In this document: piece after piece, positions 2,929 to 29,450 of the stretch
Numbering within the stretch: the first letter of the stretch is position 1
Layout: every line of letters begins with the position of its first letter
IMG/VR virus record: IMGVR_UViG_3300003794_000010
Coordinates: 1-29,904 of that record
DNA: 29,904 bases
DNA from: a virus
Strand: one strand, 5' to 3'
Notes under the pieces: generated by a model
Database searches by the model: none
The model's input: the letters and a program-made list of their open reading frames with translations, nothing else
What the model was told of the DNA's origin: nothing
Translations under genes and position numbers: made by a program

Positions 2929-4068
2929 TTACCAGAGGACCGCGAGCATGACGTAGTCGCAATCAACCTGGTTGTTGGTCCCTTGGGTGAGGCATTTGAC
3001 CGAAAACCCTGCCGTAGTCGGCGCAACATCGATATGCGCGCTTCCGTTGTACGATGAAAAGGGTACGCACTGAGCGCTTGCCAGACTGGTTGACGCCGGC
3101 ACGCGGCAGGTCGGGACTACGGCATAGTTCGCGTGAGGTGGGGCAACACTGAACACGGGAGCGTATTGACCGACGCCGTTGTCGGTCACACCGAGAATAT
3201 CATTGCTTGCGCGAACAGCGAGGGTGCCGGTCCCGTTGAAGTTCACCCACGCCTGCACAGCGTCGGTAATGCCGAGGTTGGTTTTTGCTCCGGCCGCGGT
3301 AGAAGCGCCGGTCCCCCCATTGGCGACGGCGAGTGCTGTTCCAGACCAATTGCCGTTGTTGACGGTATTCAGCGTCGATAGCGTCCCAAGCCCCAGCCCC
3401 GTCCTCGCCGTCGCCTGCGTTGTCCCTCCCGTGCCTCCGTTCGCGACAGCGAGCGCTGTGCCGGACCAATCCGAATTATTGATAGTCGATTGGGTAGCGA
3501 GGGAGCCGAGCCCGAGGGTCGCCCTGACAGTTGCGGCGTCTGCGTCGTCGAGAATGGTGCGAGCGAATGCCGTGAGTGACGAAGTGGCATACGTATCCAA
3601 CGCGGTGGTGTAAATCAGTTGGTTTGCAGCGGTCGTAAGACCAGCGATGGACTGGAGGCCCGCATCTTGAGCTTGCACGTTCGTACCAATCACGAGACCT
3701 AGAGTGGTCCGCGCCGCTGCGGCGTCAACATCATCGATGAGCGAGCGCCCGTAAGAGGTGATCGTCGTCACCGCCGCCGTGTCGACGCCGGTCGTGTAGA
3801 TCATCCTATCGGCGACCGTGGTGAGCCCCGCGATCGACTGCAACAGAGCGTCCTGAGCCTGGACATCGGTTCCGATCACCAATCCGAGGTTTGTGCGCGC
3901 GCCACTTGCCGTCGTCGCACCGGTACCGCCGGCAGTGACCGGGCGTGCAGCATTCGCGTCGGCCGCGAAGTCGTCGAGCTGGGCGTTGTACGGCGCCGAT
4001 TGGATCGTCGTGTTTGGCGTACCCTTCGACCCCGAAAGAAGCGAAAAGACGCCACCAGTTCTAGGCAT
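2929..4068 (-). CDS. Repetitive tail fibre protein
   Basis: 379 residues. After an N-terminal part (1-45) come repeated units: LGLVIGT followed by VQAQDA at about 61 and 123 (period 62 residues), then two 40-residue units with [15 protein letters not shown] or its variant, ending near residue 268. Gly/Thr repeats with the AxGGTGA motif are typical of trimeric phage fibre shafts. The C-terminal 110 residues are non-repetitive and should hold the receptor-binding tip. The start at 4068 has an AGGAG site. A terminator-like hairpin lies just upstream at 4088-4113. The receptor is unknown. Confidence 0.85.
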
Positions 4069-4087: not shown

Positions 4088-4113
4088 GAAAGCCCCGCGA
4101 TTGCGAGGCCTTT
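4088..4113 (-). terminator. Terminator-like hairpin ahead of the tail fibre gene
   Basis: Read on the minus strand, GGCCTCGC (4110-4103) pairs with GCGGGGCT (4098-4091) around the loop AATC, with two G-U pairs and two extra A-T pairs, followed by TTTCTCT. On the plus strand the same bases give mismatches, so it is better formed in leftward transcripts. It lies just upstream of the ribosome site of the tail fibre, where it could attenuate late transcription. Confidence 0.5.
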
Positions 4114-4185
4114 CAAGGATGTCGGCGGTTCGGATTCGACTCTTGCGGAGGTTGTGCGATGATCCTGGGAATGGAGGAAAAGCAC

Positions 4186-4512
4186 ATGTCCGAAGACGAA
4201 CCGAGAGAAGCCAGATCGAATGACGTAGTTCTCACGAGCGGTAAGAAAATCGCCGTTGGCTCTGAGTGGTGGACCCTTGAAAACACCGACGTTGCCGTCG
4301 ACTATGTCGATCTAATTACCGAGGCCCGCCAATTTAACGGGGTCGTACACCTTTCCCTGGGCGCAGGCGTTCGCGACGCCAATAATGCCGGTGTAGTCAG
4401 GGTCAGCACTCGCTTTCGGATGAATCTTCTGGTTGCTCAAGGTCTGCACAGTTTGCTCGGGAGCATGATTTCGGACGCGCTTAAGCCAGTTGACAAGTCT
4501 CAGGCCAATTGA
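4186..4512 (+). CDS. Hypothetical protein, first gene of a plus-strand block (108 aa)
   Basis: 108 residues with an acidic, polar N-terminus and a body with the segment SLGAGVRDANNAGVVRVSTRFRM cut here into SLGAGVRDANN and VVRVSTRFRM, which looks beta-rich, then a helix near the C-terminus. The ATG at 4186 is preceded by GGAGG at a good distance and is preferred over the ATG at 4159. No membrane segment. The residues around 60-95 resemble small cytoplasmic proteins of unknown function; I make no functional call. It is transcribed against the late operon. Confidence 0.6.
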   Translation: MSEDEPREARSNDVVLTSGKKIAVGSEWWTLENTDVAVDYVDLITEARQFNGVVHLSLGAGVRDANNAGVVRVSTRFRMNLLVAQGLHSLLGSMISDALKPVDKSQAN

Positions 4513-4543
4513 GCTTTTCATCGTCTTCTCCTATGTTGCGGGC

Positions 4544-4804
4544 ATGATCCGTGCCCTTCTCTTTATGATTGCTGTGGTGGTCTTAGTTTTCGGCCTATTC
4601 TGGTGGTCAGGAGCAAACCGAGCCGAAGCGTTCGGATACTGCGAGATGCGCCGAATGGAGCAATCCATTCCGATGCAAAACGCGAACATCTACATCGACC
4701 ACTGCATGGCGTCGCGCGGATTCAACCGGCCTCCAGGTGGGTGCAGTTACGACCTCCCCGCCTATCCCTTCTGTTATGAGCCGGCGTGGGTCTTTTGGCG
4801 TTAG
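4544..4804 (+). CDS. Small membrane-anchored cysteine-containing protein (86 aa)
   Basis: 86 residues: one hydrophobic N-terminal segment (about 3-22) that is a membrane anchor or signal sequence, then an extracytoplasmic part with four cysteines and a CMASRGF motif reminiscent of small exported proteins of rhizobia that carry C-M-x-x-x-G-[FY]. A frame extended to a TTG at 4490 would overlap the previous gene; the ATG at 4544 is preferred although no clear ribosome site precedes it. Function unknown. Confidence 0.5.
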   Translation: MIRALLFMIAVVVLVFGLFWWSGANRAEAFGYCEMRRMEQSIPMQNANIYIDHCMASRGFNRPPGGCSYDLPAYPFCYEPAWVFWR

Positions 4805-4850
4805 GTAACGCCAATTGCCCGGTTGCCCGAACTACGGTATTTCATTGCAT

Positions 4851-5096
4851 ATGCAGATCGACCACGACCCTAATGAACCATCGCGAAAGGCGCTGAAAAT
4901 CATCGGCGTGTTGACCGCCGTGATTGTGCTTTCGGTTATGGTTCCTGTTGCCGGAGGCCTGCGCTGGACCGTTGACCAACTTCCCGAATGGCTAATCGGC
5001 GTTTTATTCGTCGGGTTCATGTGCTTTGCCGCCGGCTTTTATAGCGGCCGTTGGGATGCAAAGCGTCAGTTTCGGACGCCCGGAAGAGACGAATAA
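4851..5096 (+). CDS. Two-span membrane protein (81 aa)
   Basis: 81 residues: a short cytoplasmic N-terminus, membrane spans at about residues 16-36 and 46-66, and a basic C-terminus. The start is uncertain: the ATG at 4851 lacks a good ribosome site and a TTG at 4815 is possible. Its last 31 bases overlap the 3' end of the converging 683-aa gene on the other strand. Small two-span membrane proteins among phage cargo can act in superinfection exclusion, but nothing here proves that. Confidence 0.5.
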   Translation: MQIDHDPNEPSRKALKIIGVLTAVIVLSVMVPVAGGLRWTVDQLPEWLIGVLFVGFMCFAAGFYSGRWDAKRQFRTPGRDE

Positions 5097-17833: not shown

Positions 17834-19884
17834 CCTGGCATCCCTCCGAGCTGCGTCGGCATGATGTGACCACCTGAGAGAACTTCCGCCATGTTCTGGC
17901 GCTGCTTCAGGGCAATCTCCTGATCGATCTGGTAGCGTTTGAGGCGTTCCTCCTGCTGGAGCCGCGCCATGGCGATACGCTCCTCGCTCTCGATCTTCAT
18001 CTTGTCAGCGGCCGCATCGGATTGGATTTTTGCCTGCTGCAGCTTCAGCTTCTCCATTTCCGGATTCGGCTTTGCCGCCTCAGCATCCATCATCTTCTTG
18101 ATCTTGGCCTCGTCCGGTTCGGTGAAATACTGATCGACGGATCGCAGGCCTGAAGCTTCGACGAGCTTGGTCAGAGCGTTGTAGACGTTCTTCGGCGTGA
18201 CGAACGGGTTATCGACGGCACCGAGCTGGGCCAGAAGCTTCTCCTGAAGCCCGGTGATCATCTGCATCATCATCATGTCGCGCTCACGGGTGCCCGCACC
18301 GAGGCCGGTGTTGACCGTGACGTCCATGTCGCCGTTCCATGGGCGAGGATCGAAGGTCACCCATTTCTTGCGCAGCCGCACCGTGCGCGGGCGGTCCTGG
18401 TGCTTGATGGTGAGCTTGAGCAGCCCCTTGAACACCCTGACCAGGCCGCGGGCGATGGTGCGCGCCATAAGCTCGGTCTGTCCGATACCTGCCTGTTCGA
18501 ACATTGCGGACGCCTTCGCCGTCATGTTCTGCAGCGCGTCCGGCGCAAGCCCGCTCGATGCGTCGGAAATGCCGGTCACGTCCGACATCTCGCGATCGAA
18601 ATAATCCATCATCTGGAACGAGCTGGCGGCAACGAAAGGCACCTGCGTGAAGCCGAGCGCCGCACGGACATCAACGCCCGCGTTCACCCGGATTGGCTTG
18701 CCGAACGCCGGGTTCAGCACTGCTTCGGGGTTTACCACCGCTGTTTCATCCACGATCGGCTGCGGCTTGTTCTGCCAATAGATGTTGTCCAGGCTCTCCC
18801 GAAGCAGGACCGTCTTGACCTTCTGGCCTTCCATCGTGTCATCGGAGATCGACGTGCCTTCGCGCTGATGCGGCCGGCGCTCCGAGATGATGTCGGCGAA
18901 CGGGACCTCGTCCCATTCCTCGTTTTCGAGCAGATAGTCTTCCTTGATACCGCCGGCGTAGACCATGCGGCGCAGCTCGGCGATTCCGTCGTCGTCCTGG
19001 TCGATACGGACATAAAGCTCGTAGTATTCGATCTCCTGCAGCGACTTCGCGAGCGTGCTGGAGTCGTCGTTGATCAGATCACGGCGCCGGGTGTCTTCCT
19101 CGTCGTCCTGATCGATCGTCGAGCCGGCAATCGGCAGGTTCTCGATCGTGTCCCTGTCGTAACCGAGCGCGACCAGTTCCGACCGACGGAGCCGCATGTT
19201 GATGCCGGTCAACGGGCTTTCGACGATATCCAGCGCGTCGGGATGAACAAGCAACTGCTCCGGCGGCACCGCGCCAAGGCGGGTTCGGCCCTTTTCGCAC
19301 CGCTTGCGGATCTTCACGTCATACACGGTCTGTGGCTGCGGCGGCTGGCCGTCACCGGCATCCATCATCTCGACGCGCGTTTCCTGCTCCAGCACCGTCA
19401 CGTCGTCGTCTGCGACCAGTTGCACCAGCGACATTTCGTCGAGGCCCGTGTGCTTCGTGACCGAGACGAAAGCCTTCTTCTCGAACCACCAGCGAATGAT
19501 ACCATTGCGGAGCTTCAGCGCGTCGTGGATCGCATCCTCAACCGCCTCGTATCCATCGCTCTCCGGGAATACCACGTTGCTGATGTAGTCGGTCGCCTGC
19601 TCTGCAAACGGTTCGTCGCCCTCGGCAACCGGCTGATACTCGGCAATTCTGTCATTGCCCAGGATCGTGCGGACCAGCGACGGCAGCACCTTCTTCACAT
19701 GGGCGCGCACGTCACGGCTGACGACTTTGGAGCGGCCGTCTGTGACCGGAACATCATCCATCTGGCCGTCAAAATATTCTGTCGCCTTGTCGCGATCGAT
19801 CGACAACTGCTCGCGATAGCTTTCGCACTCCTTGACCAGGTTCGCGATTGTCGGGGTCAGATTGTCTTTCTCGGTCTCAGCCAT
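17830..19884 (-). CDS. Portal protein, P22-like (684 aa)
   Basis: 684 residues from the ATG at 19884, which overlaps the large terminase stop (TGATG); the upstream ATG at 19914 lies inside that gene. The N-terminal YFDGQMDDVPVTDGRSKVV, the acidic parts, DALKLRNGIIRWWFEKK, DLINDDSSTLAKS, SDVTGISDASSGLAPDALQ, and a long helical C-terminal region with EERIAMARLQQEERLKRY fit the large portal of P22-type phages (P22 gp1, 725 residues). Twelve copies should form the DNA channel and dock the terminase. The C-terminal coiled coil may form the barrel inside the head. Confidence 0.85.
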   Translation of the reverse strand: MAETEKDNLTPTIANLVKECESYREQLSIDRDKATEYFDGQMDDVPVTDGRSKVVSRDVRAHVKKVLPSLVRTILGNDRIAEYQPVAEGDEPFAEQATDYISNVVFPESDGYEAVEDAIHDALKLRNGIIRWWFEKKAFVSVTKHTGLDEMSLVQLVADDDVTVLEQETRVEMMDAGDGQPPQPQTVYDVKIRKRCEKGRTRLGAVPPEQLLVHPDALDIVESPLTGINMRLRRSELVALGYDRDTIENLPIAGSTIDQDDEEDTRRRDLINDDSSTLAKSLQEIEYYELYVRIDQDDDGIAELRRMVYAGGIKEDYLLENEEWDEVPFADIISERRPHQREGTSISDDTMEGQKVKTVLLRESLDNIYWQNKPQPIVDETAVVNPEAVLNPAFGKPIRVNAGVDVRAALGFTQVPFVAASSFQMMDYFDREMSDVTGISDASSGLAPDALQNMTAKASAMFEQAGIGQTELMARTIARGLVRVFKGLLKLTIKHQDRPRTVRLRKKWVTFDPRPWNGDMDVTVNTGLGAGTRERDMMMMQMITGLQEKLLAQLGAVDNPFVTPKNVYNALTKLVEASGLRSVDQYFTEPDEAKIKKMMDAEAAKPNPEMEKLKLQQAKIQSDAAADKMKIESEERIAMARLQQEERLKRYQIDQEIALKQRQNMAEVLSGGHIMPTQLGGMPG

Positions 19885-21263
19885 CAAACAACCTTCTGCG
19901 GTGTGAAGTCCCATGAGCCGGCGGTCGGCTTTACGATGGCCTTGCGCAGCATCATGAGCGCGTACCGAGACGCGGAAATTGTATCGTCACGCTCTTTGAC
20001 GACCTTGCCGTCCTTACGATGGTAAAGGCGACGTTCCTCAAGCCAGGCGCCACAGGTGCGGAACACCTTGAACCGGCCAGTCTGCATTCGATCGAGCATG
20101 TCCATCAGGCCCGCCTCTACGCTGTTCGAGCCGTCCAGAAACGTTGCGCGCTCCGGCAGCATCTTCAGGCCCTGCGCCCTGTATTGTGTCGCGAGGTTCT
20201 CGCCGGCAGCCGTGTCATTGTTCCCGTCATGCGGCCAGGCCCACGGCATCCATATGCCCCAAGGCTTCAGCGCCGCGGCATGCAAGATCGGTGTAGCCTG
20301 CCTCTGGCGATAATCCCGCGTCAGGTAGACGATGTCGCTGTCCCGGTCCCAGGCTAGACTTGCTGCCGCCGTTGGGTGGTCCCATCCGAAGTCCAGTCCG
20401 CCGATCTGCGGCCAGTGCTTCGGGATGAGGAACGGATCAACGACAATGTCCTCTTCCAGGATCGGGAAGATCAGACCGGAGCCGAGCGTCGGAACGCCCT
20501 TCGTTCGCGCGTCGCGCTCGTGCGCCGGATAGCTGGCAATGATGCGCTTTCTGTCCTCTGGCGTGTAATGCTCGGCGTCCTCGATCGTCATGGTGATCAC
20601 CCGACGATGCTCCGATGCCTCCAGCAGATACCGGGCGACGACCGCGCTCATCCCCTTGAGCGGCGTGAACGTGACGGCGATCAACCCGCCCGTTGCGTTC
20701 GTTCTCGTGATCCCCTCAAAGTACACGTCTTCCGGTGGCTCCTCGTCAAACCAGACGTAATCGACCGTGTTGGCCTGCCATTTGCCGCGGCCCTGCTCAT
20801 AGGCCTTGAAGAGCAGCGTCGATGATCCACCCGACGCATGCCGAACGGTGACGCTATCGAGTGCGCCAGAAACGCCCGACCGGCGCGTGGTGGCGATGAT
20901 GTCAGCCTTTGGGATGTAGCCGGTGCCCCACTCCTCCTCGTTCATCGGAGGGCCGATGAGCAGCCGCTGCACACCGTCGCGCGTCAGTTCGTAGGACTCG
21001 GAGCCGGCCAGCATCACGATCGGCTTGTTGAACCGCTTGCCGTTCCACCCTTCCGGATATCGGCCCGTCAGGTGCATCGCGGCTTCGGCAGCACCGGCCA
21101 GCGTCTTACCAAGCTGGTTGCCGGCCATGAACAGGCGCTCGCGATAGGCAGCGCCGGCTAGGTGGAATTCCTTCTGCTTTGCGTACGGCCTGTAGGAAGC
21201 GAGGCGATTAGTGCGCCGTCTCCGGTCCATCTCTGCCAGTAGCTCGGCCTGCTCCCTCAGCAT
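19884..21263 (-). CDS. terL: Terminase large subunit
   Basis: 459 residues from the ATG at 21263. Walker A is AGNQLGKT (47-54), Walker B is YVWFDEE (169-175) with catalytic Glu next to Asp173, and the nuclease centre starts at GGLDFGWDHP (Asp291). The protein pumps DNA into the head and cuts it. The start is uncertain: ATGs at 21320, 21287 and 21230 are also in frame, and longer ones overlap the small subunit by up to 113 bases. No strong ribosome site is seen for any of them, so coupling to the small subunit is likely. Confidence 0.92.
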   Translation of the reverse strand: MLREQAELLAEMDRRRRTNRLASYRPYAKQKEFHLAGAAYRERLFMAGNQLGKTLAGAAEAAMHLTGRYPEGWNGKRFNKPIVMLAGSESYELTRDGVQRLLIGPPMNEEEWGTGYIPKADIIATTRRSGVSGALDSVTVRHASGGSSTLLFKAYEQGRGKWQANTVDYVWFDEEPPEDVYFEGITRTNATGGLIAVTFTPLKGMSAVVARYLLEASEHRRVITMTIEDAEHYTPEDRKRIIASYPAHERDARTKGVPTLGSGLIFPILEEDIVVDPFLIPKHWPQIGGLDFGWDHPTAAASLAWDRDSDIVYLTRDYRQRQATPILHAAALKPWGIWMPWAWPHDGNNDTAAGENLATQYRAQGLKMLPERATFLDGSNSVEAGLMDMLDRMQTGRFKVFRTCGAWLEERRLYHRKDGKVVKERDDTISASRYALMMLRKAIVKPTAGSWDFTPQKVV

Positions 21264-21597
21264 CAAGGAAAGGTCGGATCGCGGCATCAAGGGTCCGGAT
21301 GCGCTCAAGGAGCTGCTCATCCGTCAGGTCATCCATCTGGTTGATGTTTACGTTCAGGTCCTTCGGCATCAGAGACGCCACGACCTTCAAGAAATCCTGC
21401 GGGCGCTTCTCGATCACCGTCTGGATTGCCGCCGGCCCCTGGCTCTCCCAGGCGGCCAGCAGATCCTCTATAAAGGCCTCGCCCAGCTTGCTACGGGCAC
21501 CCTTGGGCCTCCCCGGGTTACCAGGCTTGAACTGGTACTCGACGGGCGGCTTTCCCTTACCCGTTTCCTTCCCGTTTTTTCGGGGATCGTCAGCCAC
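21208..21597 (-). CDS. terS: Terminase small subunit, DUF5681-like
   Basis: 129 residues. The N-terminus contains YQFKPGNPGRPKGARSK, the mark of the DUF5681 family, which is found just before phage large terminases; it is followed by a helical part with AFIEDLLAAWE and KRPQDFLKVVASLMP. It should recognise the packaging site and guide the large subunit. The start is GTG at 21597 with GAGAGG six bases upstream; there is no in-frame ATG earlier. It is the first gene of the head operon. Confidence 0.82.
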   Translation of the reverse strand: MADDPRKNGKETGKGKPPVEYQFKPGNPGRPKGARSKLGEAFIEDLLAAWESQGPAAIQTVIEKRPQDFLKVVASLMPKDLNVNINQMDDLTDEQLLERIRTLDAAIRPFLDAEGAGRATGRDGPETAH

Positions 21598-21703: not shown

Positions 21704-21961
21704 ATGAAGTATACGACTTTCGTCCTCGGTGCCTTGGCAGCCGTTGCAATTCAGTTTTCAGCATCCGCGGCGGATCTCACTCCACCCCGCGCCAAAGAGT
21801 CATCCGACGGTATTAGCAAAGCGCGTACCGGGGTTTGTAATCCGCCGGCCAGATACAAAGAATGCAAAGGCAAAGGGTTCAGCAGCAACGTAACGGAATG
21901 CTGCCGAAATACCGATACCTGCGGATACGGGGCTTCGGGTTATCCAATCTGCATGCCGTGA
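21704..21961 (+). CDS. Secreted small cysteine-rich protein (85 aa)
   Basis: 85 residues. The N-terminus is a Sec signal peptide (about 1-22, cleavage after SASA). The mature part of about 63 residues has six cysteines (45, 54, 66, 67, 73, 83), a number that allows three disulfides, and many Gly, Lys and Tyr. There is no anchor, so the product should be released to the periplasm or outside. GGGGGA is present as ribosome site. It is the first gene of a plus-strand block. Function unknown; a moron acting on the host envelope or on surroundings is possible. Confidence 0.65.
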   Translation: MKYTTFVLGALAAVAIQFSASAADLTPPRAKESSDGISKARTGVCNPPARYKECKGKGFSSNVTECCRNTDTCGYGASGYPICMP

Positions 21962-21998
21962 CATTGTCGGCTTGATCATCGTCGCTCAGGAGGGCGGA

Positions 21999-22301
21999 AT
22001 GAACGATAATACAGATGCAGTGAACGAGCTATCTTTAGGGGGCGTCGGAGGAATTCCTAAGCGCCCTCAACTCATCACCAGCTACGTGCCCGGCCCCGCT
22101 GGCGACGGAAAGGCAACTCTGTACATAGGCGGCTCGACAATCAAAGTCACTGGCATCACTAGCGTCGACGTTTTCCAATTCTCGGAGCACGACCGGCGCC
22201 TTTGGTTAAACATCCAGTCGAGAGATGGCAACGGAGGCGAATATATCCTCGGTAGCGACGACAGTTGTCACTTTGGGATGGCCCGTTCGGTTCCGCTGTA
22301 G
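21999..22301 (+). CDS. Hypothetical protein of plus-strand block (100 aa)
   Basis: 100 residues with no signal peptide or membrane segment. The N-terminal 35 residues look flexible, the rest alternates strand-like pieces (KATLYIGGSTIKVTG, then RLWLNIQSRDGNG). The ATG at 21999 has AGGAGGGCGG just ahead, better than the ATG at 21972. It follows the cysteine-rich gene by 37 bases. No family recognised. Confidence 0.55.
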   Translation: MNDNTDAVNELSLGGVGGIPKRPQLITSYVPGPAGDGKATLYIGGSTIKVTGITSVDVFQFSEHDRRLWLNIQSRDGNGGEYILGSDDSCHFGMARSVPL

Positions 22302-22418
22302 GCGTTGGTTCAACAATGAAGCGAAGCATGAGGCTCACTTCATCCGTGGCCATGTGCGGACTTCTCATGCCGGGCGTTGTTCAGGACAGGCATGGGCTAA
22401 CCTTAGGAGGAAGACAAC

Positions 22419-22598
22419 ATGCGAATGCGAGTAACCATCAGAGACACGAAGAATCCCGACAGATCCGTGGTGCTGGAATTTTCGGCATCCGAGGAGAGGG
22501 ATATAGCCGCGAACGTCAAAGCCGCCGGTGACAATTTCCGTATGGAATACCCAGACGTGCCATTCGACGACAAGATGATCTCTCTCGACAAAGCGTGA
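22419..22598 (+). CDS. Small protein of plus-strand block (59 aa)
   Basis: 59 residues, beginning MRMRVTIRDTKNPD and ending MISLDKA. It is charged and looks like a short strand-helix-strand fold. A textbook ribosome site (AGGAGGA, 22406-22412) precedes the ATG, which decides for this frame over a longer overlapping one. No motif recognised. A GC hairpin follows its stop. Confidence 0.65.
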   Translation: MRMRVTIRDTKNPDRSVVLEFSASEERDIAANVKAAGDNFRMEYPDVPFDDKMISLDKA

Positions 22599-22612
22599 TA
22601 TGAACTGCCGAA

Positions 22613-22628
22613 CCGGGCCTTCGCCCGG
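22613..22628 (+). terminator. GC hairpin after the 59-aa gene
   Basis: CCGGGC (22613-22618) and GCCCGG (22623-22628) form a perfect 6-base stem with a four-base loop, 15 bases after the stop codon. No T-run follows, so it is at best a weak or Rho-assisted terminator, or a stabilising end. Confidence 0.35.
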
Positions 22629-22812
22629 CACACCTTATCGGGTATGAGGGAGCATTACAGACTCACGCCGCTAAACATTCGGCGGCGGAGGTACAGTAAT
22701 TTGCTCCGCGGTTGCGGCGGCGCTCTGTGGACTACTGTGGGCATCTTATTCCCTATTGCCGAATCAGCCGTGCAAGTGGTTGCGTGTCCTCCCAACTGGA
22801 GGAGATGTAACG

Positions 22813-23022
22813 ATGTGGCTCGCGCTTATTTCGATCACCGGCACCAACATGTTTGTGAATATCAACCGGGTTGGCGGAATTTGGGAACAATCAGATAGGA
22901 GCGCCAAGCTTCTGATCGATGGAGAAGAGGTTTACGTCCGCGACAACTATTCAACAATCGTTGCCGCGATTAAGACCGCTCAGCCTTTTCTTAACCCATA
23001 TTCCGCCAATCACGAGAGCTGA
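22813..23022 (+). CDS. FlbD-like mini-protein (69 aa)
   Basis: 69 residues. The pattern TGTNMFVNINRVGGIWEQ, a polar turn, LLIDGEEVYVRD, then STIVAAIKTA repeats the small FlbD-type layout (T/NG, N-I-D-x-I, a two-stranded DG-turn, ending in a V-x-D/E-helix). FlbD proteins in flagellar clusters are of similar size; here the gene is phage cargo and no flagellar gene is near. The ATG at 22813 has GGAGGAG eight bases upstream. The relation is my reading of the pattern, so treat it as tentative. Confidence 0.6.
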   Translation: MWLALISITGTNMFVNINRVGGIWEQSDRSAKLLIDGEEVYVRDNYSTIVAAIKTAQPFLNPYSANHES

Positions 23023-23044
23023 GCCGGGCCGCAAAGCCCGGCTC
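23021..23044 (+). terminator. Hairpin terminator after the FlbD-like gene
   Basis: GAGCCGGGC (23021-23029) pairs perfectly with GCCCGGCTC (23036-23044) around a six-base loop, starting on the stop codon. There is no clear T-run after it, yet the stem is strong (nine pairs). From here to 23317 (about 270 bases) I see no convincing gene; the stretch should hold the leader of the next gene. Confidence 0.5.
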
Positions 23045-23317
23045 CATTGGTGAGTGTTGAACGCCTGACATGCATCACCTTTGCCGGTCTGTGCGGCCGT
23101 GGCAATCTACGTGTGACAACAGATAGGGGTGGCCCGTATGCCGATGCAATCTCGCTGGCAGGCCCCGGTTAGCATCTAAGCCAAGCTCTTTCGGCGAAGA
23201 CCGACACAATCGACGGGATCGAAATATGTGAGCGCTTGAATAACTAAAGTCTTCGTCTCATCTAAGACTGCGCTTTCGCCAAAAGGGCGTCAAAGCCCGG
23301 CCAAATGGAGGATCAAC

Positions 23318-23563
23318 ATGGCAATCACCCCGGTTCGGCTCACGGTAAAGTCACCATTCCAAAGAGATGGGCACGCGATCGATGCTGCCGACTATGCCGG
23401 GCGAGAAATTTCTCGTCCTGATGTTAACTCCTCTGGCGGCCTAAAGACAACCTACCTGTTAAACGCCGTGGTACCAGTTCGGCAAGACACAGCCATCAGC
23501 AACATGGGTTTAGAACTGGACGTCACCGATCTTGTCGATTCCGGCCAAATCGAGGTGCTTTGA
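23318..23563 (+). CDS. Hypothetical protein of plus-strand block (81 aa)
   Basis: 81 residues, no membrane segment. Short hydrophobic strands (VRLTVKSPF, LLNAVVPVR) and an acidic helix toward the end (LELDVTDLVDSGQIEVL). A GGAGG site precedes the ATG at 23318. The region before it (23045-23317) lacks other genes and may hold a promoter. No family recognised. Confidence 0.6.
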   Translation: MAITPVRLTVKSPFQRDGHAIDAADYAGREISRPDVNSSGGLKTTYLLNAVVPVRQDTAISNMGLELDVTDLVDSGQIEVL

Positions 23564-23651
23564 CCGCGCCGCTCCGCTGCTTAGAGGCTTCGCCTTTTCA
23601 TTGAGGACGAGTGCCACTGGCGCGCGCCCAATTCCGGCCGGCGGGAAGGCA

Positions 23652-24167
23652 ATGTGTCATCAGCCATCAGAACCTAAGCTTGAATTCTACCATCTTCGCG
23701 CTGTCGACTTACGACAGATTCCGTTGCAAACTTTGAACCTTAAAAAGGGAGCTTCAAATATCGTGACCCTTATTCATCTAATTTGGCTCCTCGGCCACGC
23801 CGTTGCGATTTATGGATTGGGCACAATGATCATCCAGTCGCTTTACGATGTTGGCCTAGCCTCTCCAGACATCTATGCGCCATTGCAGAAGTGGACAGGG
23901 GCTTTCTTGGCAGCCGCGTCTATAATATTGGTGTCGGTCTCGATTTATTTCGAGAGAGACTGGCGCCCTCCGCCAAGTTCCTTCTCGCGGACAAGAACTG
24001 CGCCACTATTTATTTTTGTTGGCATCATCTATCTTGCCGTTTTTCTCTTTAGCAAGGGATCAATCAGTTCCTCTTATGCTGATGGTTTGAGTGCCATTGC
24101 GCTAGGGGGATCACTAATCCGTCTTACTGGCGTTCCTTACGGCTATGAAAACAGAAGTGATATCTGA
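23652..24167 (+). CDS. Multi-span membrane protein of plus-strand block (171 aa)
   Basis: 171 residues with an N-terminal soluble part of about 40 residues and three to four predicted membrane spans (about 43-66, 84-104, 120-138 and a weaker one at 145-160). The base composition is more AT-rich than the structural operon. A GGGAAGG site precedes the ATG at 23652; the longer frame to 23532 overlaps the previous gene. No family recognised. Membrane proteins at such places in prophages may block entry of other phages, which is speculation here. Confidence 0.6.
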   Translation: MCHQPSEPKLEFYHLRAVDLRQIPLQTLNLKKGASNIVTLIHLIWLLGHAVAIYGLGTMIIQSLYDVGLASPDIYAPLQKWTGAFLAAASIILVSVSIYFERDWRPPPSSFSRTRTAPLFIFVGIIYLAVFLFSKGSISSSYADGLSAIALGGSLIRLTGVPYGYENRSDI

Positions 24168-24252
24168 CATAGAGACTGCACGTTGGTAATCGGCCCGCGA
24201 CCGACCCGGCTATAGTCACGCAGCCAATTTTGGGCGCATTTCTGGATTGGTA

Positions 24253-24271
24253 GGAAAGCAACTAGCTTTCC
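24253..24271. other. Perfect short hairpin between converging genes
   Basis: GGAAAGC (24253-24259) and GCTTTCC (24265-24271) are perfectly complementary around a five-base loop, in the 171-base gap between the converging membrane-protein gene and the NusG-like gene. No T-run is present on either side, so a bidirectional terminator is possible but not proven. The rest of the gap contains no gene I would support. Confidence 0.35.
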
Positions 24272-24338
24272 CGTGGCCCCGTGGGTGACATATCGCCCCC
24301 AACAGAAAAGACAGGCCCGCAAATCAGTTGCGCACAAT

Positions 24339-24845
24339 CTATGCCACAAGCCTCAGATTTGCAATGCTCAGCTCGATTTCCTGCAGGCCTTCGAGGTTTT
24401 CAACCACAGCTTTGACGGCCTTCTTGCCTTTCGGCCTGACGACGTTGGCGTAATAGCCAGCGAGCGGGCCGCTCTCGATCAGAACGCGTGAGTTCGGCTT
24501 GAGCTGCGTGATGGTCGGCGGACGCATGACATCGAAGTCGCCGCGGTTCTGCGCCTCGCACATTTCCAGCACATTCGCCGTGGGGATCGGGATCGGCCCT
24601 TGGTTTCCGCCCAGGATGGCGATGACGTTGTCCATTGCCCGCAGGCAATCGAAATCAACGTCATCGTTCAGGGCGGCGAAGATGTACTGACTGAAGATCG
24701 GAAATCTTCGCATCATCCATTTTTTCGTCTGAAAATGCTTGATCTCTTTCCGCATGACCGGCGCTATCACATCGAGCCCGATAGCTTCCAGCTCCTCGAT
24801 CGCCATGGCCTGACGACCTGGAGCCGTCCTTAGAACATACCACAT
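24339..24845 (-). CDS. NusG/RfaH-family transcription antitermination-like protein
   Basis: 168 residues. It starts WYVLRTAPGRQAMAIEELEA, the usual beginning of the NGN domain (W-Y-V followed by a helix), continues with MMRRFPIFSQYIFAAL, matching the P-x-F-x-G/x-Y-I/V-F pattern of NGN, and ends with a KOW-type part (about 116-166: LKPNSRVLIESGPLAGYYANV, as in NusG's V-x-V-x-x-GPF). The family binds RNA polymerase and changes pausing or termination. It is upstream of the whole leftward late operon, which suits an antiterminator. A GAGG site precedes the start; the upstream stretch includes an 8-base palindrome (TAACGTTA, 24874-24881). Confidence 0.85.
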   Translation of the reverse strand: MWYVLRTAPGRQAMAIEELEAIGLDVIAPVMRKEIKHFQTKKWMMRRFPIFSQYIFAALNDDVDFDCLRAMDNVIAILGGNQGPIPIPTANVLEMCEAQNRGDFDVMRPPTITQLKPNSRVLIESGPLAGYYANVVRPKGKKAVKAVVENLEGLQEIELSIANLRLVA

Positions 24846-28634: not shown

Positions 28635-29450
28635 ATGAACAAGATGACGACTACCACAATCGCCGCAACTACGGAACAGGCTTTGAGCCGCCGGCAAATG
28701 CTCATTGGCCTTGCTGCAGCCTCTACCGCCGCCGCGACCGCCGTCATGCCCTCTCCTGCCCTGCCCGCCCAGGTCATGGAGAATCCTAAGCTTATCCGTC
28801 TTGGTGACGATCTGCCGAAGCATATTGCTGCATTTGAGACTGCACGGAACGATCGACTGGCAATCATAAGGGCATGGAAGCACAAATGGCCCCTGGCGCC
28901 GGACAGTATCACCGAAATCCCAGATTTCGACACTCCTTTCCATTCCGGGAAAGAGCTGGATATGTTCGGAGCGCCGTTCAAGCGTCCGGGGGAAAAGCAT
29001 CCTCGCTTGATATCGTCGGGATGGCGTATCGAGAGCAGCGTCAAGTCGGCGAGGCGCGCGCTGCGGTCCAAGAAGATGGCGCAATCCGGCCATGTTCAGG
29101 GCATGCCCTACGAGCAATGGGAAGATATCCTGAAAGAGGCGCTGGCGGTCGAAAAAGCCCACAACGAATACACGACGGCGGTTGAGGATTTCTATTTCCT
29201 CTCAGGCTACAAGGCCGCTCACGCCGCTTTCAACGAAGCAGCCGAACGCCTCGTTGCACACGTCAACGCTATTCTTCGCCAGCAGGATTACTCGATGGAA
29301 GGCATTCTGGTTAAGGCGCAGGCGATACGCCTTCAAGCCGACCCGGATCTGACGTTGAGGTCGATCGTAGCCGAGGGCGGCGGGTTGAGCTCGTGGGCCG
29401 CGTCTCTTGGTGAATCCATCCTGCGGCTTGCAGGCGAAGGGAGGGCATGA
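28635..29450 (+). CDS. Exported protein with twin-arginine signal (271 aa)
   Basis: 271 residues. A twin-arginine motif (LSRRQMLIG, residues 17-25) precedes a hydrophobic stretch and a likely cleavage site after ALPA (about residue 45), so a folded protein would be exported by the Tat system. The mature part of about 225 residues is mostly helical, with RLGDDLPKHIAAFETARND, SSVKSARRALRSKKM, and a Trp/Glu-rich part. No cofactor motif is visible. Proteins with this layout and no known function occur in rhizobial prophages. AAGGAA is the ribosome site. Confidence 0.7.
   Translation: MNKMTTTTIAATTEQALSRRQMLIGLAAASTAAATAVMPSPALPAQVMENPKLIRLGDDLPKHIAAFETARNDRLAIIRAWKHKWPLAPDSITEIPDFDTPFHSGKELDMFGAPFKRPGEKHPRLISSGWRIESSVKSARRALRSKKMAQSGHVQGMPYEQWEDILKEALAVEKAHNEYTTAVEDFYFLSGYKAAHAAFNEAAERLVAHVNAILRQQDYSMEGILVKAQAIRLQADPDLTLRSIVAEGGGLSSWAASLGESILRLAGEGRA

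Follow-up and report, generated by a model that had tools for sequence, protein, structure and literature searches.

A probable accessory-gene slot between a NusG paralog with a structured border RNA and the terminase genes of a podovirus-type phage of Rhizobiaceae

IMG/VR virus record IMGVR_UViG_3300003794_000010 was analysed over its positions 1 to 29,904 (29904 bases, hereafter the window). Its minus strand carries a long late module of podovirus type, with genes for the terminase large subunit, portal, major head protein, tail and endolysin. Facing this module is an island of six plus-strand open reading frames (ORFs), genes A to F (21704-24167). We interpret the island as the cargo slot of a temperate podovirus-type Rhizobiaceae phage, bordered on one side by the gene of a NusG paralog and a structured RNA, and on the other by the genes for the small and large terminase subunits (terS and terL); we assign this reading a probability of about 0.78. 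The order of elements is observed: NusG-like gene, RNA element, variable and mostly antisense cargo, terS, terL. The opposite-strand cargo is replaced between close relatives, and its families are common to phages with unrelated terminases. The most interesting item, the border RNA coupled to the NusG paralog, lies just outside 21704-24167.

Conserved flanks and changing cargo

The window's nearest named relatives, RHph_N3_2 and RHph_N2 among them, are Rhizobium phages, and close terminase loci also occur in genomes of Rhizobium, Sinorhizobium/Ensifer and other Hyphomicrobiales. About 160 loci (numbered with the prefix L) were collected via the large subunit, TerL, and the slot was defined as the interval from the NusG-like gene to the terminase. 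In the window its flanks are as follows:

19884..21320, minus strand: TerL, terminase large subunit; anchor for the slot comparison
21208..21597, minus strand: gene in the terminase small-subunit position, assigned from phrog_8771 and from its position adjoining terL; the other slot edge
24228..24338, minus strand: three-stem RNA element, directly 3' of the NusG-like stop in the late-transcript sense
24339..24845, minus strand: NusG paralog (UpxY/RfaH/LoaP-like), putative antiterminator; Pfam NusG 3e-13, phrog_6386 3.5e-30

An earlier note on this DNA, made from the letters and their reading frames, had placed the block between a NusG-like gene and the terminase. These neighbours were confirmed, with the refinements that the adjoining gene is the one in the TerS position and that a scar of a foreign terS lies inside the block. 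None of the six proteins is encoded in the about 160 terminase-related loci, where the slot holds other cargo; this presence/absence comparison had been proposed in the same note. Two loci assigned to Rhizobium sp. CF080 (L004 and L109) have a TerL that is 96% and a TerS-position protein that is 98% identical, yet encode none of the six. The slots of relatives contain differing genes, mostly on the strand opposite the terminase, and retain the NusG and TerS/TerL flanks; where a NusG-like gene could be recognised, the slot is 1-5 kb long. Pfam was run on 86 slot proteins of relatives and recognised five BrnA antitoxins, four BrnT toxins, one HicA/HicB pair, helix-turn-helix proteins and two weak FlbD matches, and small secreted proteins also belong to the cargo. 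Some cargo families are common to phages with unlike terminases (e.g. L109 and L169, L008 and L201). Two annotated phages have the same gene order, phiLM21 and the Ak57 prophage of S. meliloti.

The G+C content of the slot is 53.4%, compared to 61.1% in the late region, and the slot DNA has no nucleotide-level match in phages. On content turnover with conserved flanks and on foreign G+C content, the island has the marks of a hypervariable slot for accessory genes ('morons'). The earlier proposal of an undescribed accessory or defence system holds in its accessory half: the slot is conserved, hypervariable in content, foreign in composition and mostly antisense to the late operon. For the defence half no direct evidence was obtained, and PADLOC returned zero families at E<=1 for any of genes A to F. 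Weak PADLOC matches among the slot proteins of relatives (Cas2-like, ZorA, capH) were not counted as evidence of defence. It had also been remarked that the island separates the antiterminator from the operon it should serve. The remark is correct, but such a separation is normal in many related phages, and the conserved border RNA offers an explanation for it.

In phiLM21 (L215, 4929-5676) the slot between the NusG-like gene and terS holds a tRNA-Met gene and an HNH endonuclease.

The border RNA and its link to NusG paralogs

The NusG-like protein matches UpxY at 3.4e-16, which is under the NCBIfam cut-off. About 110 bases past its stop are non-coding and conserved in 14 relatives, although the cargo beyond them wholly changes. 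RNAalifold predicted three stem-loops in this element. In the alignment 96.1% of cells pair and 5 of the 22 pairs are changed on both sides; doubly changed cells number 11, against a mean of 2.5 in shuffled alignments, and this value was reached in 0 of 500 shuffles. Sliding the pairing partners abolished the covariation signal, although this control favours the structure, which was derived from the same sequences. A covariance model found copies outside the training set immediately 3' of NusG-like genes in L059, L188 and L179, the latter two being phages with other terminases, and further copies near NusG-like genes in L051 and L033. By eye, NusG and RNA are similarly arranged in the Ak57 prophage and phiLM21. 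No Rfam family matches the border RNA. When the RNA model was run over 299 Rhizobiaceae genomes, the sole match at E<=0.001 under strict filters was in Rhizobium sp. CF080 (G001), so the window's RNA subclass is rare in that sample.

A pattern for a second subclass (subclass 2) was found in 49 viral contigs. A NusG-like ORF ends 20-50 nucleotides (nt) upstream in 37 of the 43 testable subclass-2 elements, and six of the 12 contigs in which such an ORF was not seen extend less than 300 nt upstream of the element. Forty-three distinct copies have a near-invariant core, GGTGATTTG-GGCTGTTCTG-GCGGACCTC-loop-GAGGGAAYACTCGCCGGGC, part of which is imposed by the search pattern. The last stem (stem 3) lies outside that pattern, and its pairing is retained with at least seven different sequences. 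Its loop is UUCG in most of the window's subclass, UAGUU in the window and UCACCG within subclass 2. Around subclass-2 elements 95% of the upstream coding DNA is in late sense, against about 53% in the 2 kb downstream (14 loci). At L259 NusG and the element are separated by other genes, and at L249 a large ATPase-like gene precedes it; the element is therefore tied to the slot head rather than strictly to nusG, and is not simply a nusG 3' untranslated region. A promoter reading of the block downstream of NusG was rejected, as the hexamer spacing is lost between subclasses and the stems are kept.

The element could be a mere terminator or mRNA-stability hairpin that ends the early operon and has no link to antitermination, which we regard as doubtful but worth weighing. 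It does sit where the early genes end, and its G+C-rich stem 3 varies freely in sequence with pairing kept, as in terminators. A T tail is absent in both directions, however, and three stems with a long invariant core (GGTGATTTG..GCTGTTC..GCGGACCTC..GAGGGAAYAC..CGCCGGGC, 43 sequences) exceed what a terminator needs. Moreover, where genes intervene, the element is still found downstream of NusG, at or near the slot start.

NusG paralogs such as LoaP are recruited via a leader RNA hairpin and promote terminator readthrough (PMC12691694). While recruitment of a NusG paralog by RNA is thus already established for LoaP, we found no description of such a NusG-linked RNA in these phages in the literature searched or in Rfam. 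By analogy with LoaP, the phage paralog may load at the border RNA. We tentatively propose, at slightly less than even odds, that temperate phages of Hyphomicrobiales have an undescribed processive antitermination module of NusG paralog and three-stem RNA, which would let late transcription read antisense through a permanently open slot, and that this slot evolves as a docking site beside terS. The cargo would be expressed from its own strand in the lysogen and would act gene by gene on the host envelope, on regulation or on competing phages, not as a six-part system. During lytic growth, the NusG paralog would load onto RNA polymerase at the RNA element, and the loaded polymerase would then cross the antisense cargo and its G+C-rich hairpins into terS-terL. 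Such readthrough would account for the tolerance of new cargo at this site.

In L188, the border RNA is followed directly by a tRNA gene (3119-3191, minus strand; Rfam RF00005).

The six genes and the terS scar

The features of the island, in order of position, are:

21704..21961, plus strand: gene A, 85 amino acids (aa); signal-peptide-like hydrophobic N-terminus and six cysteines; orphan
21999..22301, plus strand: gene B, 100 aa; homologous over residues about 20-100
22340..22393, minus strand: terS scar, the first 17 codons of a foreign Terminase_2 small-subunit gene, MPVLNNARHEKSAHGHG and then a stop; pseudogene fragment
22419..22598, plus strand: gene C, 59 aa, no family; begins right after the terS-scar element
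22613..22628, plus strand: G+C hairpin 3' of gene C, read from the sequence; no T tail
22813..23022, plus strand: gene D, 69 aa; predicted FlbD-fold mini-protein, five strands and a helix
23022..23043, plus strand: G+C hairpin 3' of gene D, read from the sequence; no T tail
23318..23563, plus strand: gene E, 81 aa; slot-cargo family
23652..24167, plus strand: gene F, 171 aa; membrane protein with three strongly hydrophobic segments; orphan

Much of what the earlier note had read in the block agrees with these features. A dicodon model trained on related phage genes was used to score all six frames, and for each of the six ORFs the annotated frame is the top one, with clearly positive scores for B to E. 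A plausible Shine-Dalgarno (SD) sequence precedes every ORF. The six are considered real. The putatively secreted six-cysteine protein (gene A), the multi-span membrane protein (gene F) and the two internal hairpins after C and D were likewise found; neither hairpin is in the list of T-tailed terminators. An Rfam match to CC0196 at 23021-23045 (E=0.01, below gathering) is merely the G+C hairpin after gene D. Pfam, PHROGs and NCBIfam gave no acceptable family for A to F, and the statement that none resembles a phage structural or replication gene is supported by PHROGs and Pfam.

The cysteines of gene A are at positions 45, 54, 66, 67, 73 and 83, all past the hydrophobic N-terminus. Structure prediction, also proposed earlier, was informative for one of the two proteins concerned. 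An AlphaFold2 (AF2) model of gene A alone has a predicted local distance difference test score (pLDDT) of 53 and is uninformative. For gene D the score is 83, in a model built with four weakly similar slot proteins. The top viral fold matches of this model, at a template modelling (TM) score of about 0.73, include phage proteins annotated as FlbD-type (flagellar/swarming motility) and N4 gp27, and no PDB chain matched it at E<=0.001. Gene D thus shares fold and size with phage FlbD-type proteins as far as the model goes, and the predicted fold is FlbD-type. The match to Pfam FlbD (PF06289) reaches E=0.15 and 12.1 bits against a gathering cut-off of 24.7. The FlbD-like mini-protein of the earlier note therefore stands at the level of the modelled fold and falls short of the Pfam threshold.

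Relatives were found for two of the genes. That of B (L211, E=4e-13) is a signal-peptide-bearing chromosomal protein of the Rhizobiaceae genome G132; B itself is without this signal peptide. The SD sequence and first codons of B match 22 of 24 bases of a cargo gene start in L109, which suggests that a swap took place at the start of this gene. Relatives of E are found in L189 (E=1e-8) and, in three copies, in genome G158. In L189 and L212 they are on the cargo strand, immediately divergent from a DUF2280 gene that adjoins the terminase, and so occupy the same kind of slot in other phages. Back-translated patterns for A, B, D, E and F found no relatives in viral_contigs, and D and F have no plasmid match. 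No relatives of C turned up, and no separate search for C was made in viral_contigs or genomes. The best match of A in 200 Rhizobiaceae genomes (L202, E=1e-6) was rejected as a relative, since it aligned mainly via the signal peptide; the L202 gene is haem-protein-like, with a CxxCH-type motif and a sox-like neighbourhood.

Knottin-type peptides have their cysteines in the same order as gene A, C-C-CC-C-C.

Between B and C, the DNA at 22345-22413 is conserved and includes the SD sequence that serves gene C. Over 68 bases it shares 82% identity with DNA directly upstream of the L109 TerS, where the surrounding genes differ. Read on the minus strand, the element gives a protein start, MPVLKNARHEKFAQ.., and its other half is the SD sequence of a divergent plus-strand gene. 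Exact-pattern matches came from 29 viral contigs and 5 of 299 Rhizobiaceae genomes, against 0 for a reversed control pattern; those in L172, L180, L187 and L198 were dropped as chance. The pattern itself demanded about five terS codons, so that the minimal unit is not set by this search. A nucleotide profile (nhmmer) recovers the window copy at E=3.8e-10. About half of the proteins that begin at such elements are full length (131-204 aa) and the others are truncated. Terminase_2 (PF03592) was matched by five of the six full-length versions examined, the sixth (L168) having the same start and no match, and the scar N-terminus MPVLKNARHEKFA is common to proteins that match PF03592. The records of phiLM21 and S. 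meliloti label the same site as terminase small subunit. Truncated terS copies are found in about 15 other phages; in L109, 23 codons of the terS start are left and abut the present TerS.

Since the two halves of the element are a terS start and the SD sequence of a divergent gene, gene C appears to derive from a phage with a Terminase_2-type terS, perhaps together with the rest of the C-F block, and A and B were probably inserted between the scar and the present TerS. Some cargo swaps joined within the first terS codons and left scars like 22340-22393. Instead of a dead terS scar, 22345-22413 could be a functional leader (a promoter, a cos/pac site or a recombination site) kept for itself. 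The element nearly always ends in an SD sequence that serves a plus-strand gene, L169 and L184 each carry two copies, and the P2/P4 cargo hotspots adjoin cos (PMC9122126). Intact copies, however, encode Terminase_2 start codons and truncated copies retain variable lengths of the terS start, and we consider the leader unlikely. Its variant as a structured RNA leader was rejected: the fold is no better than those of shuffled sequences, and the block is the reverse strand of a Terminase_2 start.

The scar also bears on the 'system' claimed in the earlier note, which was not supported. All six genes might form one co-selected defence or exclusion system, with F as membrane effector, A secreted and B to E as regulators. 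The block is compact and co-directional with good ribosome sites, a membrane and a secreted protein would suit exclusion, and the same slot holds toxin-antitoxin genes in relatives. Nevertheless, the scar divides the block between B and C and thus parts A-B from C-F, several genes are set apart by gaps of 100-300 nt with hairpins, and PADLOC gave no hit for the six. Co-occurrence of the six in other genomes was not seen: no relative of B (L211) or of E (L189, L212-L214) is accompanied by the other five genes, which lends no support to a six-gene system. We regard a single system as highly improbable, and the gene-by-gene evidence is more consistent with a cargo mosaic.

In the nhmmer search the double copies of the terS-start/SD element were at 7194-7156 and 8492-8454 in L169, and at 4095-4131 and 4358-4392 in L184, each pair in one slot, as if cargo had been inserted twice at one boundary. 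In L075, at about 2500-2960, a Terminase_2 start is in frame with another ORF (142 aa), giving a chimeric slot gene.

Known systems and points against the slot reading

In phage lambda, the late antiterminator gene Q is directly upstream of its cis site, and toxin genes are located between Q and the lysis genes. Here, too, an antiterminator gene and a putative cis site are followed by a cargo slot before the late genes. Unlike the protein here, Q is no NusG paralog; its loading site is in DNA, and its cargo is in late sense, whereas the cargo here is mostly antisense. Like moron or lysogenic-conversion genes, the six genes are small, foreign in composition, opposite to the surrounding operon and variable between relatives. 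They differ from morons in being grouped in a fixed slot between NusG paralog and terS. The anti-phage hotspots of P2 and P4 (Rousset et al. 2022, PMC9122126) are likewise small, at 1-5 kb, and carry a fast-changing set of genes between two conserved ones; they adjoin the packaging site, and the slot described here adjoins the terminase genes. The phages and flanks are different, and no verified defence gene is found among the six, toxin-antitoxin pairs being seen only in relatives. By this analogy, some rhizobial slot genes may be defensive.

The LoaP/dfn system (PMC12691694) likewise combines a NusG paralog with the structured leader RNA of a long, terminator-containing operon. A linkage to NusG and a covarying hairpin are found here as well, and the UUCG stem-3 loop of most of the window's subclass is a further likeness. 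The element differs in having three stems, in its occurrence in alphaproteobacterial phages at or just after a nusG-like gene, and in its loops (UAGUU in the window, UCACCG-containing in subclass 2); its role here is proposed by analogy.

Several observations weigh against our reading of the island as a cargo slot with a NusG-coupled border RNA. The window's own RNA has no dfn-like UNCG loop, though most of its subclass does, and its stem 2 is unlike that of subclass 2. In L051 (3414-3532), L249 (3415-3521) and L259 (1661-1767) the element does not directly follow the NusG gene. As for the genes, the coding scores of A and F in the dicodon model are weak in absolute terms, no true relatives of A and F were found in the searches made, which leaves them orphans along with C, and no sigma-70-type promoter was recognised for the plus-strand genes. 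These last points, together with the terS fragment, would also be expected if the block were decaying, mostly silent junk DNA left by illegitimate recombination. All six ORFs have an SD sequence and score highest in the annotated frame, proteins B and E are conserved elsewhere, and the slots of relatives are likewise full of ORFs and known toxin-antitoxin pairs, so that we consider junk DNA very unlikely.

With the cargo-slot reading, the interval from NusG-paralog gene to terS becomes searchable in rhizobial temperate phages, for a systematic harvest of accessory and possibly defence genes. The covarying RNA, linked to NusG paralogs in dozens of phages, is a testable candidate for late-gene control and for the tolerance of antisense cargo.

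Two other regions of the window also have plus-strand genes. A second small opposite-strand cluster of three ORFs (4159-5096) breaks the minus-strand late genes; its first ORF (4159-4512) is 49% identical to a relative in L133 (287-598) and looks, by eye, like a slot gene of L229. At 28635-29450 a protein with a twin-arginine-like N-terminus gives a weak match to TIGR02811, and its N-terminal part is also present in L065 and L109.

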